Source of the DNA: Mesorhizobium sp. 131-2-1
GTDB taxonomy: Bacteria > Pseudomonadota > Alphaproteobacteria > Rhizobiales > Rhizobiaceae
Direction of reading: 5' to 3'
Length of the DNA: 64,000 bases
Assembly: GCF_016756535.1 (NCBI RefSeq)
Contig: NZ_AP023247.1
Location: 4,588,501-4,652,500 of the forward strand
Part shown: positions 25,274 through 33,630 of the stretch, piece by piece
Position numbering within the stretch: the first letter of the stretch is position 1
How the letters are laid out: every line of letters begins with the position of its first letter
Made by a program: the position numbers and the translations under genes
The notes under the pieces: generated by a model
Seen by the model: the letters and a program-made list of their open reading frames with translations, nothing else
What the model was told of the DNA's origin: nothing
The model's database searches: none

Positions 25274-25756
25274 TCACAAGGCCAAAAGGCGCGCCACATC
25301 CTCAGGCGTCGCCTCGCGCTCGATGATGGTGCGGCCAAAGGCATCCTCCATCTCGAAACGGCCGTTCTGGATTTCTTCCTTCATGCCGTCGAGATGGGTG
25401 ACCTTGATCGTGCTGCCATCGATCTCGATTTTGTCTCCGGTCGCCGCGTTGACGTGGCTGTTGTGATTGGCGCTGTTGCCGCGGTTGGCGTTGTTGTTGC
25501 CTGAGTTGTTGCTACCGCTATTGTTGCTGTTGCCGCCGCCGGAGCTTGAATTGCCGCCGCTGTTGCCATTGCCGCCGTTCCCGTTCCCGCCATTGCCGTT
25601 GCCGCCATTGCCATTTCCGCCATCGGCGTAAGCCAAGGTAGGAACGATCCTGGCGGCGCCGTAAATCTTAACGTGGCAAGGCGCGATCGTCAGCGCCAGC
25701 GCCGTCGAGATCCCCAGAGCAAGCCGGCTCAGCCGGTTCAAGGACAGTTTGGGCAT
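25274..25756 (-). CDS. exported Gly/Asn-repeat protein with conserved C-terminal domain (copy A)
   Basis: 160 residues. Signal peptide about 1-42, unusually long, ending near LAYADGG. Residues about 45-100 are NGNGG/NSGGN/NNSGS low-complexity repeats. Residues about 103-160 form a compact domain: TGDKIEIDGSTIKVTHLDGM, then KEEIQNGRFEMEDAFGRTII and EREATPEDVARLLAL. The C-terminal domain is shared with copy B (26273-26752) at high identity, so the pair arose by duplication. Secreted or surface protein; no function known. RBS AAGG lies close to the ATG. Confidence 0.78.
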   Translation of the reverse strand: MPKLSLNRLSRLALGISTALALTIAPCHVKIYGAARIVPTLAYADGGNGNGGNGNGGNGNGGNGNSGGNSSSGGGNSNNSGSNNSGNNNANRGNSANHNSHVNAATGDKIEIDGSTIKVTHLDGMKEEIQNGRFEMEDAFGRTIIEREATPEDVARLLAL

Positions 25757-26272: not shown

Positions 26273-26752
26273 TCAAAAACTCTTCAACCGCGCCACATCG
26301 GCCGCGGTTGCCGCTCTTTCGACGATGGTGCGCCCAAGCGCGTCCTCCATCGTGAAGCGGCCGTTTTCGATTTCTTCCTTCATTCCGTTAGGGTGCGTGA
26401 CCCTGATGTTCTTGCCGTCGATTTCGACCTTGTCGCCGGTTACGGCGTTGACATGATCGACAGAGACATCGTCGGCCTTGCCTTTGCTGTTGCCCTTGCC
26501 GTTGCCGCCGGCGTTGCTGTTGCCGCTGTTTCCGTTTCCGCTGCTATTGCCGCCGCTGTTTCCGTTCCCGCCGCCGCTATTGCCGCCGCCGTTTCCGTTC
26601 CCGCCGCCATTGCCGTTGCCGCCCTTGCCGGCATAGGCCTTGCTCGTGGCGACACCATCGACTGAGAGGTGAAAGGGTGCGAAAATCAGCGCAAGCGCGG
26701 CGAATACGCGCAAGACAAGCCAGCCCAGTTGGCCCATGCGCAGTACGCGCAT
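26273..26752 (-). CDS. exported Gly/Asn-repeat protein with conserved C-terminal domain (copy B)
   Basis: 159 residues, start ATG 26752. Hydrophobic N-terminal signal (WLVLRVFAALALIFAPFHLS) with cleavage near YAGKGG at about residue 40. Gly/Asn/Ser repeats to about residue 95, including GNGKGNSKGK. The C-terminal domain is VTGDKVEIDGKNIRVTHPNG, then KEEIENGRFTMEDALGRTIV and ERAATAADVARLKSF, matching copy A nearly position by position. The repeat region differs in length and composition, the domain does not, so selection acts on the domain. Confidence 0.78.
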   Translation of the reverse strand: MRVLRMGQLGWLVLRVFAALALIFAPFHLSVDGVATSKAYAGKGGNGNGGGNGNGGGNSGGGNGNSGGNSSGNGNSGNSNAGGNGKGNSKGKADDVSVDHVNAVTGDKVEIDGKNIRVTHPNGMKEEIENGRFTMEDALGRTIVERAATAADVARLKSF

Positions 26753-27298
26753 CCCACTCTCCCCTTGCCGGTCAACCGGCGCGACAGCTAGCCGAAAACC
26801 CCAACGGCATTGTCGATGAGAAAGCATTCACAAATCGCGGGGCTTCGCGAAAGTGGCCCACGACCCTTGTCTTGCCTATTCAGACCTTTTGCTTGGCCGA
26901 TATCAGACTTAGGTCTTAGTTCAACCTCAGGATGTGGTCCTGCGCAGTGTCCTGCAAGGCTGATTCAGGAAGCACCGGCGCCGCAATCCGGGCCGGCGAC
27001 GCCGCCCCCACTGGAGCAGGCACCCGCACTGCCGGCAGGAACTGGCCAGAATTGCGGAAACGCTTCGCCCAGACGGCGCTGGGAGCCATGAAGGCAAGGC
27101 GGCGGCCGAGCATATTGCCTGGGGGCATGTTCCTGAACGAAGCACAGGTCAGGAATAGCATACATCGAAACAATGACTTAAGTGGCGTCTCTAATGCGAT
27201 TTGAGACCCAAGTCATTTGACCGGCCGGGCCGACGAGCCGGACGGTTGACAGGCCCGATTCGTCTGGCAAACTCGCCCAGCATTTTCTGGAGGGTGGG
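26753..27298. other. 546-base gap before the RiPP-like peptide gene
   Basis: Open frames of 60-90 codons exist on both strands but lack RBS and recognisable domains. A TTGACA at 27246-27251 lies 48 bases before the peptide ATG, with no clear -10 at 17 bases. Confidence 0.4.
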
Positions 27299-27409
27299 AT
27301 GACCAAGAAAACCTATGAAAAGCCCGAGCTTGTGAAGAAGGACAAGCTTTCGCGCGTGACCGCTGGCAATGGCGGTTCGGTGATCGCCAATGGCCCTGGG
27401 CCGTCCTGA
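27299..27409 (+). CDS. putative RiPP precursor peptide with lasso-type leader
   Basis: 36 residues, RBS GGAGGGTGGG directly upstream of the ATG. Leader MTKKTYEKPELVKKDKLSRV holds the YxxPxL motif (Tyr6, Pro9, Leu11) that RRE proteins recognise in lasso-peptide leaders. Thr21 stands at the usual -2 position before a Gly23 core start. The predicted core is 14 residues (GNGGSVIANGPGPS). A lasso ring needs Asp or Glu at core position 7-9; here position 9 is Asn, so a classical macrolactam is not expected. No B1, B2 or C gene lies within the window. The gene sits between the Gly/Asn-repeat genes and a glycan/export operon. Identified by motif only. Confidence 0.6.
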   Translation: MTKKTYEKPELVKKDKLSRVTAGNGGSVIANGPGPS

Positions 27410-27418
27410 CGCAAGCCT

Positions 27419-27881
27419 TCAAGGGCAGAACTCAAATCTCTGGCCTGGCAGCGGCGTTGGCAATCGTGCCGTCATAGCCGTGCCGAAGGCTGCCGCAATG
27501 ATGGCTGCAATGCCGGCGCATTGCAGTGCCGTCAGGCTCTCATGCAGGAACAGGAAGCCGATCAGCGCGCCCAGCGCCGGTTCCAGGCAGGTCAGCATGC
27601 CATAGACCCTGGCCGGCATCCTGGTCAGCGCCACCATCTCCAGCCAGAACGGCAGTGCGCTCGAGAGCAGTCCGACGAGCATGGCGCTGATCAGGATCGA
27701 CGGCTGGGCGAGTACCGGCTCGACGCCGGCAAAGCCGAAGGGCAGCGCTACAAGCGCAGCGATCGCCATACCCCAGGCCGTGGTGCGGACGCCAAGCTCG
27801 GCACCGGCCTTCTGCGCAAAGACGATGTAGAGCTCCGATCTGCACCGATGTCATGGCGCAGAGAAGCGCCGCGACGGGCAT
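27419..27881 (-). pseudogene. EamA/RhtA-type exporter with internal deletion and frameshift
   Basis: The start MPVAALLCAMTSVQIG in one frame is joined after a frameshift to ELYIVFAQKAGAELG in another, which continues to a normal EamA second half (GMLTCLEPALGALIGFLFLH). Helices 2 to about 5 of the usual ten are missing, so about 120 codons were lost. The remaining ORF (27419-27769) is too short for a working EamA transporter. Interpretation from the known RhtA layout. Confidence 0.7.
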
Positions 27882-28545
27882 GGCGCTGGCTTCTCGGCGA
27901 GGTTTGACGATCGGCGTCAACGTCGCTGTTCTCCCCTACCCTTGCGACTGCGTGCCTGGGATAGAGTCAACACGCCTGCCTGTCGTGGCCGCAAAGAGGA
28001 TGGTTGATGGGCAACAGCGAGGTTGGCCGCCGGAGGCCAAAAGCCGAGACGCTGGCGGGACGGGCGCGCTCGGGTGTGGAGGATCGCCAACGCATCCTAT
28101 TTCGCACCGACTCTCGTTGCATCGCACAAAGCTTGCACCAGCCATCCGTCTACCATGCGGCAGCCAGAACGGAGAAATGAAAAGTTTTTATCTATATACT
28201 GCCGAAATGCCCGCGAAAGTTGCGAAGCATCTTCTAAAATGCAACCCGATCAATACTTTCAGGCAGACAGCATTGTCCCTGGCATGATTGTGGTGTCTTA
28301 CCAGCTCTCGGGCACGAGATTGCGGAGTATGGCATAATATTGGCAATTTCGTGCCATTTCTGCGCCCTGTCATCACAGATGTATTTCAACACGGTAAACA
28401 TTTTGTGTTGCATTGCAGCATTCCATGCTACACTCGTTAGCAGTTGCGAATGTGCCGTGGAGGAGTTGAGCAGCTTGGGCCTTCTGCTGACCGGCGCCGA
28501 TTTCAATCCAGCCTCAACGAATGATGACGCCGGCGGAAGCCACTG
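27882..28545. other. 664-base, locally AT-rich gap before the acyltransferase operon
   Basis: From about 28170 the sequence is clearly less GC-rich than its surroundings. A 36-codon frame at 28177-28287 has GGAGAA just before its ATG, but no family resemblance. A possible promoter (TTGCAT, 15 bases, TACACT, near 28412-28438) precedes the operon. No gene is supported firmly. Confidence 0.4.
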
Positions 28546-29745
28546 ATGGCAAACGTGCGCGACATACAGCTCGATGCGCTGCGCGCCGTTGCGGTGACGA
28601 TGGTGCTCTATGCCCACTTCCTGGCGCCCGGCGGGACTTCCTTTGTCGGCCATCTCGGCGTCAGGTTGTTCTTCGTGCTGTCCGGCTTCCTGATCACGCG
28701 GCTCCTGCTCGAGGCGCGCGACGCCGCCGCGTTCGAGGCGGGACCGGCGCTAAGGGCTTTCTACATCCGGCGCATGCTCAGGATATTCCCGCCCTATTTC
28801 GCCGTGCTCGGCCTCGTCTGGCTGGTTAACCCGGATCAATCGTCGAGGGGATCGCTGGTCTGGCATGCGCTTTACCTGTCGAATTTCTGGTACGCATTGC
28901 ACAATGAATGGACCCCCTGGGTCCTCTCCCATCTCTGGAGCCTGAGCATAGAGGAACAGTTCTATCTAGCCTGGCCGCTGATCGTGCTTCTGGCGCCACG
29001 CCGACGCCTTGAGTCGATCTGCATCGGCGTCATTCTGTTGTCGCTGTCGTTTCGCTTCTACTGGCCGATCGCCGGCACCCCTGGCCCTGCACGCGACCTG
29101 CTTCCGCCCGCATCGATGGATGCGCTGGCATCGGGTGCGCTGCTTGCGGCTTGGCGATCCAGAACTGCCGGCTTGCCGCAGTGGTTGCGGCTTGGCTGGC
29201 CGGCGCTCGCGGCAGCGTTTTTCGTCTTGCAGTGGTTTGGTCCGACGCCCGAAAATCCCGTGCAGGAATGGGGCCGCTGGTTGCTCCTGGAAGTCCTGCC
29301 TCTCGCGCCGCTTGTCATGGTCGTTGCAAGCTGCTCGTCTGGCGTTGGCGGCTATCGCGGACGGCTTCTCGACCTTTGGCCCCTGCAGGCCCTTGGCCGT
29401 ATCAGCTACGGTGTATACCTGTACCACAACATAGTCCTGGCGCTTGCCGTCATGTCCCAGCCCTGGATCCCCCTCAACGTCTCTGGACAGGGGCCGGGAC
29501 GGTTTCTGATTGTGGGAACGGCCACTGTCATCGTGGCTTCAATTTCATGGCTGGTTCTCGAAAGGCCGCTCAACAGCTTCAAGCGCTACTTTCCCTATGT
29601 CGCCAAAACCCGTGCCAGTATTCAGCCACGCGTCGATACAAGCGATGCCGCATGGCTCGGGCGAACTGCAGGCGCATATCCTACTGGATCGCCCGATGGC
29701 CGCGCGCCGTCGCTCGACCTCCAGCGAAAGGATGCGCGCCAATGA
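28546..29745 (+). CDS. acyltransferase 3 family membrane protein
   Basis: 399 residues with about ten hydrophobic helices. The family signature is clear: DIQLDALRAVAVTMVLYAHF at the start, GVRLFFVLSGFLITRLLL, FYIRRMLRIFPPYFAVL and LSHLWSLSIEEQFYLAWPL. These enzymes O-acylate exported sugars or lipids in the inner membrane (ExoZ, OafA type). The last 60 residues are hydrophilic and cytosolic. Its stop overlaps the next start by ATGA, so it begins a four-gene coupled operon. Confidence 0.9.
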   Translation: MANVRDIQLDALRAVAVTMVLYAHFLAPGGTSFVGHLGVRLFFVLSGFLITRLLLEARDAAAFEAGPALRAFYIRRMLRIFPPYFAVLGLVWLVNPDQSSRGSLVWHALYLSNFWYALHNEWTPWVLSHLWSLSIEEQFYLAWPLIVLLAPRRRLESICIGVILLSLSFRFYWPIAGTPGPARDLLPPASMDALASGALLAAWRSRTAGLPQWLRLGWPALAAAFFVLQWFGPTPENPVQEWGRWLLLEVLPLAPLVMVVASCSSGVGGYRGRLLDLWPLQALGRISYGVYLYHNIVLALAVMSQPWIPLNVSGQGPGRFLIVGTATVIVASISWLVLERPLNSFKRYFPYVAKTRASIQPRVDTSDAAWLGRTAGAYPTGSPDGRAPSLDLQRKDARQ

Positions 29746-30854
29746 CTGCCGCGCCGCTCGTTTCCGTGCTTTTGCCGGTCTACAATGCCGGGCCCTACAT
29801 CGCCGCCGCGATCGGCTCGATCCTGCGCCAGGACTACGATCGCCTGGAGGTGATCGCGATCGACGACGGCTCGAGCGACAACTCGCTGGAGATCCTCGAG
29901 CGCCACCGCAAGGCCGACAGCCGCGTCAGGCTCGTCTCGCGCGAAAACCGCGGCCTCGTCGCCACGCTGAATGAAGGGCTGCAGCTCGCCCGTGGCGAAC
30001 TGGTCGCCCGCATGGACGCCGACGACTTCGCCTATCCCTGGCGCCTGTCGCGCCAGGTGGCGCTGTTCGCCGAGCGGCCGGAGCTCGGCTTCTGCGGCGC
30101 CGGCATAGACATGCTGCAGCACGGCCGCATCAAGAGCGGCGTGCCCGATCCGGTGTTCAAGATCGGCCGCATCCCGATCCTGTCGCAGTTCTTCACCATC
30201 TTCATGCACCCGACCGTGGTCTACAACCGCCAGGTCATCGGCGACGACAGCCTGCGCTACGATCCGCAATACAGGCATGCCGAGGATTTCGATCTCTTTC
30301 GACGGCTCGCCGCCCGCTACCCGGCGGCGATGATGCCGGAGAACCTGCTCGTCTACCGCATCCATCCGGGCAGCGTGACCAGCCGGCACAGCGAGGAGAT
30401 GCGCCGGACGCATCTCAGTATCGTGGCCGAGAATCTCGAGCGCGAGGGCCTGGCGGAGGCGACGCAGGACCTGCGCGCCATCGGCGAGGATGTTTCCTTC
30501 GATACGGTCGCCCGCGCGGCCGAATTCATCGTCGCGCTGGAGGAGCGGATCGCCTCACTTCCCGACGAGACACGGCCGAGCTTCGCCGCCGGCGCGCTCA
30601 ACCTGTTCTATTTCCTCTACCAGCTTGTCGGCGACGAGAAGACGCCGCCGCTGACGCGTGAGCTGCTGACGCGGACGGCGAAATGGGACGCCATCCGCCG
30701 CCGCGAGAAATACGCGCTCAGCCCCGGCAACTGGGCTCCCTGGCTCAGCCTCGCCTCGATCACCGCCGGCAAGAAGGCCGACTGGCTGGCCTATTATCTC
30801 AAGACCAAGCCGGAAGCCGAAGTGCTGAAGCCTTTTCGATTGGGGGTGGCATGA
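29742..30854 (+). CDS. family 2 glycosyltransferase
   Basis: 370 residues. GT-A fold: PLVSVLLPVYNAGPYIAAAI, IAIDDGSSDNSLEILERH, then the metal-binding Asp motif VARMDADDFAYPWRL. RHAEDFDLFRRLA is the probable catalytic-base region. It uses a nucleotide sugar to extend a glycan; sugar specificity unknown. Coupled by 4-base overlaps to the acyltransferase before it and the second transferase after it. Confidence 0.9.
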   Translation: MTAAPLVSVLLPVYNAGPYIAAAIGSILRQDYDRLEVIAIDDGSSDNSLEILERHRKADSRVRLVSRENRGLVATLNEGLQLARGELVARMDADDFAYPWRLSRQVALFAERPELGFCGAGIDMLQHGRIKSGVPDPVFKIGRIPILSQFFTIFMHPTVVYNRQVIGDDSLRYDPQYRHAEDFDLFRRLAARYPAAMMPENLLVYRIHPGSVTSRHSEEMRRTHLSIVAENLEREGLAEATQDLRAIGEDVSFDTVARAAEFIVALEERIASLPDETRPSFAAGALNLFYFLYQLVGDEKTPPLTRELLTRTAKWDAIRRREKYALSPGNWAPWLSLASITAGKKADWLAYYLKTKPEAEVLKPFRLGVA

Positions 30855-31855
30855 TGGATAGGCCCGTTGTCCAGCCCGCCCGTCCGTCTTCACCCCGCAG
30901 GCAGCGACCGGAGGTCTCCTTCATCGTCTGCACGCGCGACCGCGCCGCGGTACTCGAAGCCTGCATCGCCTCCATTCAGACCGCCTGCCGGGCGCATCCG
31001 GCCTTCCCGGCCGAGTTGGTGGTGGTCGACAATGGCTCGCGCGACGGCACGACAGAGCGCCTGGCGTCGATCGCCGAAACCTCGCAGGTGCCGATCACCG
31101 CGCTTCTCGAGCCGCGGCCCGGACTGGCGGCGGCGCGCAATGCAGGGCTGGCGCGGGCCCGCGGCCGCGTGCTGGTCTTCGTCGACGACGACTGCAAGCT
31201 CGACCGGACCTATCTGCGCGACCTGCAGCGGCATTATGCAAGCGGCGAGAAATGGCTGATCCGCGGCGGCCGCGTCGAGCTCGGCGACGCGCGCGACCTG
31301 CCCTTCACCATCAAGCGTTGCGAACAGCGCCAACGGCTGACGCCGGCCGTGCATCCGGGCGGCTTCGTGCTCGGCTGCAACATGACCATGCACCGCGACG
31401 TCGCCGCGCGAATCGGCCCGTTCGACGAGCGCTTCGGGGCCGGCGGCGCGCTGCGCTCGGCCGAGGACACCGACTATCTGGTGCGGGCCATGCTCATCGG
31501 CATGCCGGTCGAATACGTGCCCGACATGACCATTTTCCACCATCACGGCCGGCGCGACCGCAAGGCGATCGACCGGCTGCACCGCGACTATCATTTCGGC
31601 AATGGTGCGCTCTGCCTGAAGCACATCCGGCGCGCGCCCTGGCTGCTGCGCCACTTCTACTGGGCGGCGCGCGCCGCACTGCGCGAGCTTGCCGGCGGGC
31701 CGAGGTTCGACCCCGAGCTCAGGCTGTCGCACTGGCCCGTTGTCGCCATGAACCTGGCGGGGGCGGCGAAATTCGCGCTGCTCGTCATCGCCAGGCGGCC
31801 ACCGCCCGAACCGTTGCGCGCCGAAGCGGGTGAAGCCGAGGCCAGCGCAAGATGA
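30851..31855 (+). CDS. family 2 glycosyltransferase
   Basis: 334 residues, starting at ATG 30851 (ATGA overlap) or ATG 30854. GT-A motifs: EVSFIVCTRDRAAVLEACI, ELVVVDNGSRDGTTERL, RGRVLVFVDDDCKLDR and AEDTDYLVRAML. The C-terminal part (HHHGRRDRKAIDRLHRDYHF) is basic and ends in a hydrophobic stretch MNLAGAAKFALLVIA, perhaps membrane-associated. Third gene of the coupled operon. Confidence 0.9.
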   Translation: MMDRPVVQPARPSSPRRQRPEVSFIVCTRDRAAVLEACIASIQTACRAHPAFPAELVVVDNGSRDGTTERLASIAETSQVPITALLEPRPGLAAARNAGLARARGRVLVFVDDDCKLDRTYLRDLQRHYASGEKWLIRGGRVELGDARDLPFTIKRCEQRQRLTPAVHPGGFVLGCNMTMHRDVAARIGPFDERFGAGGALRSAEDTDYLVRAMLIGMPVEYVPDMTIFHHHGRRDRKAIDRLHRDYHFGNGALCLKHIRRAPWLLRHFYWAARAALRELAGGPRFDPELRLSHWPVVAMNLAGAAKFALLVIARRPPPEPLRAEAGEAEASAR

Positions 31856-33630
31856 TCCGGCCGCTGCCTCCCGCCCTCTCCATGCTGCGCAGTGCGCTGG
31901 GCGGCAGGCTGATGCGCCTGCTGCCGGTCGTGGTGCTGCTCGGCCTTGGCGGCGCGGCGCTCGAGGGCCTAGGCATCGGCCTGATCATCCCGCTGCTCGG
32001 CATCATCATGGGCCATGGCGACGCTTCCGGCATGGGCGGTTTCTCGGCACTGCTGCAGAAGGTAGGTGCCGGGCTTGGCGAGCGCGAGCGGCTGGTCGCC
32101 ATCTCGGCGGCGATCCTTGGCTCGATCCTGCTCAAGAACCTGCTCGGTTACGCCAACACGGTGCTGACCGCCCATATCTACGGCAAGGCGAGCTATTCGC
32201 TCCGCAGCGCGCTGTCGGAACGGCTGCTCAGGATCGGCTATCCCTTCTTCCTGAAGGAGAGCCCGGGCCGGCTGCTCAACATCATCTCCAACGAGTCCTG
32301 GCGCGCTTCCGACGCCATCCAGGCCCTGCTCGGCTCGGTCGTCAGTGCCTCGGCGGCGCTCATCCTGCTCACCTTCCTGCTGCTCCTGTCATGGCAGATG
32401 ACGCTGCTGGTGACGCTCGGGCTGGCCCTCGTCCAGGTGGCGCACGCGGTGCTGTCGGCGCACCTCAAGGCGCCGAGCCGCAGCGTCGCGGCGCGCAACA
32501 GCGCGCTTGCCTCGCAGATGCTGCATCTCGTGCATGCCGGGCGCCTGATCCGCATCTTCGGCCAGGAGGAGCGCGAGAAGGCTGCCTTCGACAAAGCCTC
32601 CGACGGCGTGCGCCGCGCCTCCTTCGTGCTCTCGACCCGCCAGGGCGCGCTGCCGCCGCTGACCGAGGTGCTGCATGCGCTGCTGTTCCTGGCGACGGTG
32701 ATCGGCGCTTATGTCGCCAATGTCAGCTTTCCGTTGACCGCCGCCTTCCTGATCCTGCTCTACCGGCTGCAGCCGCATATGCGAGCCTTGCAGATGTCAT
32801 GGAGCCAGTTGCAGGGGCTTTCGGGCTCGCTGGAGGAAGTGACCTGGCTGCTCGATCCCGTCGGCAAACCCGCGCCGCCGCGGGGCAGCCTGCCGTTTCC
32901 AGGGGTTGGCGAGAGGATCGCCTTCGAAAGCGTGAGCTTCACCTATGCCAGCGAGGAGCAGCGGGCGGCGGTGCTGCACGCCGCGACATTCGAGATCAAA
33001 GCGGGACGCTCGACAGCGCTGATCGGCCGCTCCGGCGCCGGCAAAACGACGATCGTCAACCTTCTGTGCCGCTTCGTCGAGCCTGACGGCGGCGAGATCC
33101 TCGTCGACGGCACGCCGCTCAGCGAGATCGATCCCTCTGGCTGGCGTCGCCACATCGCGCTCGCCAGCCAGGAGCTGGAGCTGGTCGACGGCAGCATCCT
33201 CGACAACATCACCTATGGCCACGACACCGCCACGCCCGCGGACGCCGAGCGCGCGGCGCGGCTAGCCGAAGCGCATGAGTTCATCGAGCGGCTGCCGCAA
33301 GGCTACGCCACGGTGGCCGGCTATCGCGGCGTCAACCTCTCGGCCGGGCAGCGGCAGCGCATCGCGCTGGCGCGGGCGCTGGTGCGCGACCCCGACATAC
33401 TGATCCTCGACGAGGCCACCAACGCGGTCGACGGGCTGTCGGAAGCGGCGATCGTGGAAACGCTGAAATCGCGCGCCGGCCGGCGTACGACGCTGGTCAT
33501 CAGCCATCACCACTCAACGATCTCGTTCTGCGACGACGTGGTGATCCTCGAGCACGGCCGGGTGAAGAAGCAGGCGGCGTTCGCGACGCTGGCCGCGCGC
33601 AGCATGGACGAGCTTTACCAGCCGGAGTGA
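31852..33630 (+). CDS. ABC exporter, fused membrane and ATPase domains
   Basis: 592 residues. Six-helix exporter domain at about 1-340 (MRLLPVVVLLGLGGAALEGL onward). ATPase domain: Walker A LIGRSGAGKTTIVN, Q-loop ALASQELELVDG, signature VNLSAGQRQRIALA, Walker B DILILDEATNAVDG and H-loop VISHHHS. MsbA/lipid-linked glycan and lasso-peptide exporters share this architecture. As last gene of the acyltransferase and glycosyltransferase operon it probably exports the modified product or flips its lipid carrier. Confidence 0.9.
   Translation: MIRPLPPALSMLRSALGGRLMRLLPVVVLLGLGGAALEGLGIGLIIPLLGIIMGHGDASGMGGFSALLQKVGAGLGERERLVAISAAILGSILLKNLLGYANTVLTAHIYGKASYSLRSALSERLLRIGYPFFLKESPGRLLNIISNESWRASDAIQALLGSVVSASAALILLTFLLLLSWQMTLLVTLGLALVQVAHAVLSAHLKAPSRSVAARNSALASQMLHLVHAGRLIRIFGQEEREKAAFDKASDGVRRASFVLSTRQGALPPLTEVLHALLFLATVIGAYVANVSFPLTAAFLILLYRLQPHMRALQMSWSQLQGLSGSLEEVTWLLDPVGKPAPPRGSLPFPGVGERIAFESVSFTYASEEQRAAVLHAATFEIKAGRSTALIGRSGAGKTTIVNLLCRFVEPDGGEILVDGTPLSEIDPSGWRRHIALASQELELVDGSILDNITYGHDTATPADAERAARLAEAHEFIERLPQGYATVAGYRGVNLSAGQRQRIALARALVRDPDILILDEATNAVDGLSEAAIVETLKSRAGRRTTLVISHHHSTISFCDDVVILEHGRVKKQAAFATLAARSMDELYQPE

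Follow-up and report, generated by a model that had tools for sequence, protein, structure and literature searches.

A genome-dispersed family of lasso-leader precursor peptides in Mesorhizobium and its co-occurrence with a cyclase-free B1-B2-K-N locus

In the 64,000-nucleotide stretch of Mesorhizobium sp. 131-2-1 analysed here (the window; C1:4588501-4652500 of a 7.1 Mb genome, G000), a small gene (Table 1) encodes a peptide that belongs to a precursor family dispersed over the genome. The family co-occurs with a locus elsewhere in the genome that encodes a discrete RRE (B1), a lasso-type peptidase (B2), an HprK-like kinase (K) and an NTP_transf_5 protein (N), retains the catalytic residues and carries no lasso cyclase (C), and every core that could be parsed contains Ser. 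From the sequences and by analogy with characterized systems, we consider it probable that the window peptide is a solitary member of a genome-dispersed RiPP precursor family that is processed in trans by this single cyclase-free, lasso-derived enzyme set to yield linear phosphorylated peptides. What appeared to be an orphan becomes a family with at least 880 profile matches, spread over 97 Mesorhizobium-type genomes, and its candidate enzymes can be named, which makes a direct biochemical test possible.

Table 1. Features of the precursor gene, numbered from the first base of the window
Feature	Position	Strand	Basis or remark
Precursor gene (36 aa + stop), MTKKTYEKPELVKKDKLSRVTAGNGGSVIANGPGPS	27299..27409	+	Translation and family matches
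Leader, 22 codons, with YxxPxL (Tyr6, Pro9, Leu11) and Thr(-2)-Ala(-1)	27299..27364	+	Translation and alignment A2
Predicted 14-residue core GNGGSVIANGPGPS, without Asp or Glu	27365..27406	+	Cleavage site inferred from lasso leaders
Core Ser5 codon, predicted phosphorylation site	27377..27379	+	Ser in 154/154 parsed distinct cores; putative modification
Shine-Dalgarno GGAGGG	27289..27294	+	Four bases 5' of ATG; TGGAGTGTGGG at the equivalent place in related genome G001
TTGACA, -35-like element	27246..27251	+	53 bases 5' of the start codon; position common among precursors

The gene had been described in a first-pass annotation of the window as an orphan precursor with a lasso-type leader and no lasso-ring acceptor. 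The elements listed there (ribosome-binding site, YxxPxL, Thr at -2, Gly at the start of the core and Asn at core position 9) are all present. Thr21 and Ala22 occupy positions -2 and -1, Gly23 is core residue 1 and core residues 7-9 are Ile-Ala-Asn; with Asn at position 9 and neither Asp nor Glu in the whole core, a ring acceptor is indeed missing. The NCBIfam lasso-leader models scored below their cut-offs on this peptide (NF033521, 13 bits against 19; NF033534, 12.8 bits against 30). The same annotation had stated that the window holds no B1, B2 or C gene. This is correct for B2 and C, as both PF13471 matches and all six PF00733 matches obtained in whole-genome searches fall outside the window, and for B1 it holds for the stretch at 18-37 kb, where there is no obvious RRE among the called genes.

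Searches with the window peptide as query yielded 11 matches at E<=10 in its own genome, eight of them at E<=0.03, and matches at E<=1 in 102 of the 146 genomes of the genus sample. Homologues, which the annotation had proposed to look for in other genomes, therefore exist, and with relatives in its own genome and in most genomes of the genus the peptide is not the isolated oddity that the word orphan implied. A profile made from 25 relatives (A2), in whose 25-row alignment Y6, P9, L11, L17 and A22 are invariant and the leader consensus is YEKPVLxKxxKLSxVTA, matched at E<=0.01 in at least 100 of the 146 genomes and at least 11 times in the own genome. There, four precursors form a tandem array at C1:4459.8-4460.4 kb without an adjoining enzyme, and single ones lie at C1:232.4, 1374, 1476, 3680 and 4690 kb. 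Only 15 of the 177 profile matches listed for 20 genomes fall within the 15 kb surrounding the enzyme locus, in 11 of 20 loci, so that cluster-based RiPP mining would miss most copies. In a plasmid collection, the consensus peptide matched only two records, both from Mesorhizobium and with uninformative annotation. The hexamer TTGACA is present in 73 of 156 precursor upstream regions, in 68 of these 73 at 50-69 bases 5' of the start, and is enriched over shuffled upstream sequence, related copies being counted apart. Its presence suggests that a housekeeping-type promoter drives many dispersed copies, each as a transcription unit of its own. Other words were also enriched in the upstream scan, which probably reflects near-identical relatives. 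A diverged precursor type, with a leader ending in TERTA or TARTA and a core QIVASG or QIVVSG, was seen in G019, G119 and G044 (L219, L220 and L223), and is the sole copy found in two genomes without the C-less locus.

The whole-genome search for enzymes that the annotation had called for led to B1 and B2 genes without C at C1:232-236 kb, besides a canonical lasso cluster with C that is dealt with below; the only two matches to PF13471, the B2 fold, lie in that cluster and in the C-less locus (C1:235.7 kb). The latter spans C1:232.4-236.4 kb (L039) and comprises a precursor, MTRKTYEAPVLRKAGRLSGITAANGNSLVTI, with the same kind of leader, together with N, a formyltransferase-like gene, K, B2 and B1, and has no transporter. 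Its B2 scored 72.7 bits with NF033537 (cut-off 33), B1 41.5 bits with PF05402 (cut-off 23.4) and N 94.1 bits with PF14907 (cut-off 31.2), while K is only distantly HprK-like (TIGR04352, 29 bits with a cut-off of 200; PF07475, 17.7 bits with a cut-off of 33.3). In a search of solved structures only B1 matched (TfuB1, E 1e-5; TbiB1, E 0.03), and K, B2 and N gave nothing at E<=0.1. Using B2 as the bait, we collected 108 loci, namely 21 and 72 of Mesorhizobium type and 15 from more distant organisms, some genomes being represented twice. All four enzymes were detected in every one of the 108 by tblastn at E<=1e-4 (B1, K and N not having served as baits), and C in none. K residues H134, K157, D174 and D175 are kept in every locus, and His-Lys-Asp-Asp is the motif of lasso kinases (PMC9266682, PMC10368454). 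In B2, Cys74 and His111 are likewise kept in 108/108 loci, as is the DxD of N; D124, which might be the third member of the B2 triad, is found in 90 of 93 Mesorhizobium-type loci and in 5 of the 15 distant ones, where it is not clearly conserved. The formyltransferase-like gene (PF00551; L039 11179-12195) adjoins N in 6 of the 21 and 11 of the 72 Mesorhizobium-type loci.

The distribution of the precursors follows that of this locus. The searches scored at most 27 candidates per genome for B2 and 54 for the precursors. Among the matches listed, the C-less B2 type (profile A1, E<=1e-15) occurs in 97 of the 146 genus genomes, and all 97 hold precursors, with at least 3-28 matches each (median 8). 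Forty-six of the 49 genomes without it have no precursor at E<=0.01 among the matches listed, and the other three (G019, G119 and G134) have one each. Of 16 genomes with a PF13471 protein that is not of the C-less type, 13 are without precursor among the matches listed, and five genomes whose only PF13471 match is the C-less B2 (one of them, G122, 79% complete) carry at least 6-16. The co-occurrence, 97/97 against 3/49, supports the first alternative of the annotation, that is, enzymes acting in trans. The corresponding Fisher p of 8e-35 ignores the kinship of the genomes and, since these are related, we do not count it as evidence. As relatedness inflates such counts, a tree was built from acsA, a gene that adjoins the locus. 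It had 107 distinct rows, from 30 of the 49 locus-free genomes and from 91 locus sequences collapsed to 77, two loci without a usable acsA being left out. On this tree the locus changes state seven times, at least six of them forced by well-supported branches. The 51 rows with known precursor counts provided four independent pairs differing in the locus: the presence of two or more precursors goes with the locus in 4/4 pairs and that of any precursor in a mean of 3.6/4, and with only four pairs the sign test cannot reach significance (p 0.125). For the canonical-type B2, taken as a control, there were six independent pairs and the precursors mostly did not follow (mean 1.1/6). In 19 of the 30 locus-free genomes dhaK, which flanks the locus, lies at most 1.5 kb from acsA, an interval too short to accommodate the locus; the stretches examined in the other 11 showed no dhaK. 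The co-occurrence of precursors and locus is clustered by descent.

The cores of the family have one residue in common. The 252 places considered correspond to 157 distinct precursors (by exact sequence, close relatives being counted separately), and leader and core could be separated in 154 of them; the other three were left out and contain Ser as well. All 154 distinct cores contain Ser; 148 have one within positions 2-6, and in 132 the first Ser falls at positions 3-5. When cores were drawn from the pooled composition (500 draws), a mean of 114 and a maximum of 129 contained Ser, and when residues were shuffled within cores (2000 shuffles), Ser was at positions 2-6 in a mean of 91 and a maximum of 112, compared with the 148 observed. 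The cores are Gly- and Pro-rich and 151/154 are of 5-16 residues, and position -2 is Thr in 106/154 and Val in 40/154. Core residues 7-9, whose tabulation across relatives had been recommended, include Asp or Glu in only 6 of the 154, and 44 cores are shorter than nine residues.

The system is not confined to the genus. The C-less B2 type (E<=1e-12) was found in 17 of 397 genomes sampled from across the order: six belong to the genus of the window, and the other 11 represent seven further genera of six families. Beside nine of these 11 other-genus loci there are 24 family-like precursors (L281 has six, L285 five, L284 four, L283 three and L286 two; L276, L278, L279 and L280 have one each), and Ser is present in the predicted core of all 24. 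L277 gave only a weak precursor match (E 0.008) and no precursor was read beside L282. Profile A6 found further precursor matches elsewhere in the other-genus genomes, some in arrays and many of them weak. In a whole-genome search, a full-length PF00733 protein was absent from six of the 11 genomes (G384, G303, G520, G420, G531 and G275), with partial matches of at most 36.4 bits, and the remaining five have full-length or nearly full-length ones. Since six of 11 genomes have no full-length protein of the asparagine-synthase type, the B1-B2-K-N system exists without a lasso cyclase. Distant named relatives include two MAGs, one from Xanthobacteraceae (L212; nine precursors, of which eight form an array) and one from Rhizobiales (L214). 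The others are from Ancylobacter koreensis (L215) and from a contig whose binning as Phycisphaera may be wrong (L213). Genes for an AMP-ligase, an acyl carrier and a GNAT-type protein adjoin the C-less locus in L212 (12442-14571; carrier and GNAT below the Pfam cut-offs), L214 (4655-6865) and L285 (4424-6664), and L280 has AMP-ligase and GNAT-type genes without a carrier. Such neighbours hint at an acylation of the product.

Several studied enzymes suggest what the locus might do. LppK acts on a linear RiPP made without cyclase and phosphorylates its core Ser3; with S3A the phosphorylation is lost (PMC13381572). BsfK also phosphorylates core Ser3, with BsfB1 helping both kinase and peptidase (PMC10368454), and PsmK and PsmN add a phosphate and then a hexose (PMC9266682). 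By analogy, we propose the following sequence of reactions, with its cleavage site and end product. The discrete RRE B1 would bind the YxxPxL leader and present the precursor to K, which would phosphorylate the conserved core Ser (Ser5 in the window peptide); the transglutaminase-fold peptidase B2 would cut after Thr-Ala, and N may add a further group, a hexose or a nucleotide, to the phosphate. A linear product would be expected, since a ring acceptor is missing from most cores and some genomes with the system have no cyclase. The annotation is thus partly supported: its proposal that the leader recruits an RRE for a non-lasso modification is probably right, and a modification by the acyl- and glycosyltransferase operon, which it had named as a possibility, is not supported, as detailed below.

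Other explanations were weighed against this one. One possibility is that the enzymes only remove the leader, or that K and N act elsewhere, the products being unmodified short peptides such as signals. The short, Gly- and Pro-rich cores (151/154 of 5-16 residues) would suit this role, and deleting the gene for N made no detectable difference in the LPP system (PMC13381572). K and N are, however, present with their catalytic residues in 108/108 loci, and Ser is in every parsed core (154/154, and 24/24 in other genera), so that we hold unmodified products to be unlikely. A different origin of the modification is offered by the complete canonical lasso cluster of the same genome, A-B1-B2-C-K-D (C1:261285-267127; L055 8785-14627). 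Its C scored 782 bits with NF033535, and its precursor has Gly1, Asp9 and a C-terminal Ser. The cluster resembles the C-less locus in having B1, B2, an HprK-like kinase and an NTP_transf_5 gene nearby, and differs from it by its C, its ABC exporter and a precursor with Gly1 and Asp9; the K proteins of the two are 23% identical and the B1 proteins 18%. Its surroundings are polysaccharide-looking genes, and the NTP_transf_5 gene is about 0.5 kb upstream. As YxxPxL is common to both kinds of leader, the dispersed precursors might be trans substrates of this cluster (C1:261-267 kb) and be made into lasso peptides by its cyclase. Against such a route, a residue able to close the ring is found at core 7-9 in just 6/154 cores and 44/154 are too short to have a ninth residue; 13 of the 16 genomes with another PF13471 protein and no C-less locus have no precursors listed, while the five C-less-only genomes have at least 6-16; and six other-genus genomes carry the system and no full-length PF00733 protein. 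The five C-less-only Mesorhizobium genomes do carry full-length PF00733 proteins, in a search that cannot separate C from ordinary asparagine synthetases. Core residues, co-occurrence and the genomes without a full-length C-like protein led us to reject the canonical cyclase, whose use in trans we regard as extremely unlikely.

The remaining alternatives concern the surroundings of the gene. The acyltransferase/glycosyltransferase/ABC operon at 28546-33630 is on the same strand and 1.1 kb 3' of the peptide, its protein families are compatible with glycan modification, and in the one related genome compared (L044) it is downstream too, all of which would fit an operon that modifies and exports the window peptide specifically. 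In L044, however, three further genes separate peptide and operon. The other family members of the own genome lie elsewhere, including the four-gene array at C1:4459.8-4460.4 kb, which has no operon of this kind beside it, and the family tracks the B1-B2-K-N locus in all 97 genomes that have it. A modifying role of the operon is therefore not supported; given its position in L044 it might still contribute to this one copy, which we judge very unlikely. The view that the frame arose by chance or is a dead relic could draw on its solitary position and its length of 36 aa, and the family does include a copy, at C1:236.5 kb (C1:236512-236598), that reads through the motif without ATG, GTG or TTG at the expected start. 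It is contradicted by the family-level homology and by a syntenic copy, the closest one found (genome G001, L044 9812-9916), which is 82% identical, is at the equivalent place with the same left-hand neighbours and differs in the 22 leader codons by six synonymous-only changes and three replacements. The upstream stretch from TTGACA to the Shine-Dalgarno is largely kept between the two copies, with the ribosome-binding site preserved, and the position of TTGACA is the one common to the family. A chance ORF is thus ruled out and a relic deserves hardly any credence; on sequence comparison, ORF 27299-27409 is confirmed as real, beyond chance.

Processing of the family by the C-less locus has its closest parallel in the Linear Polyphosphorylated Peptides (LPPs), linear, phosphorylated and cyclase-free relatives of lasso peptides already described in Bacillota (Popov et al. 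2026, May; PMC13381572). The available text of that report gives LPPs a YxxP leader, a kinase-target Ser near the N-terminus of the core and variable cores, and the present family has the same features, the kinase target being here predicted. The LPP combination of RRE, HprK-like kinase and NTP-transferase without cyclase is found in 108/108 loci. LPPs are processed by LppS, an SpI-like (archaeal-type) signal peptidase, and have an MsbA-like exporter (PMC13381572); here, a lasso-type B2 is the peptidase encoded between B1 and K, no SpI gene is found among the called genes of the own locus, and this locus has no exporter. The LPP leader YxxPxVLxHQxIxFETxxS (PMC13381572) is not found in the family, whose consensus shares with it only YxxPx and a hydrophobic residue. 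In addition, LPP clusters contain one to three precursors, with a 45-aa core in the one tested, whereas at least 3-28 are dispersed in each Mesorhizobium genome, mostly with cores of 5-16 aa; and the available text terms LPPs restricted to Bacillota, while the present system is mainly from Hyphomicrobiales. The phosphorylated lasso peptides paeninodin (PadeK), pseudomycoidin (PsmK, PsmN) and Bsf (BsfK, BsfB1) share with it B1, B2, K and N homologues and YxxPxL (PMC9266682, PMC8498205, PMC10368454), as well as a Thr (or Ile/Val) at -2, the BsfK target being core Ser3. Their clusters encode C beside the cognate precursor, whereas here there is no cyclase and a ring acceptor is rare. With respect to lasso peptides as such, the YxxPxL motif, Thr at -2, B1 and B2 are all found, although B1 and B2 are not beside the window gene; the Asp or Glu expected at core 7-9 is replaced by Ile-Ala-Asn in the window peptide and present in 6/154 cores, and no locus has the cyclase. 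By analogy, the system would work like an LPP system whose SpI-like peptidase is replaced by a lasso B2 and whose leader motif differs; it lies outside the definition of lasso peptides. On our best reading, it is set apart from LPPs by the lasso B2 peptidase and the genome-dispersed precursors. According to the available text on RRE-Finder, its discrete lasso RRE model finds almost 8,000 proteins, of which only about 4,000 occur together with a peptidase and a cyclase, and some of the others could be RREs from uncharacterised RiPP classes (PMC7470986); that text contains no description of a B1-B2-K-N set or of dispersed precursors. Nor did our searches of open-licence PMC papers turn up a description of an alphaproteobacterial B1-B2-K-N system or of genome-dispersed precursors.

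These results suggest a role for lasso-type leader peptidases in cyclase-free pathways of Alphaproteobacteria as well, in parallel to the LPPs of Bacillota. A wider proposal, which may hold or may equally fail, is that of a distinct RiPP class of Hyphomicrobiales in which one chromosomal B1-B2-K-N locus serves up to 28 scattered, single or tandem precursors, many with their own promoter. It would produce a combinatorial set of short linear peptides bearing a hexose or nucleotide linked through phospho-Ser, formylated or acylated in some lineages by the attached formyltransferase or AMP-ligase/ACP/GNAT proteins, and could constitute a species-specific private repertoire for signalling or conflict.

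Two other observations were made around the gene. At 25274-25756 and 26273-26752 the window encodes a pair of related proteins that look secreted; both contain Gly/Asn-rich repeats, and they have a C-terminal part in common (no Pfam match at E<=0.01). On the minus strand, at 27446-27914, is a gene for a transporter which we take to be of the EamA type. It matches in two pieces only (residues 5-32 and 166-294) and looks therefore like a decayed copy; the same transporter is intact in G001 (L044 9940-10827), where it has 295 aa.
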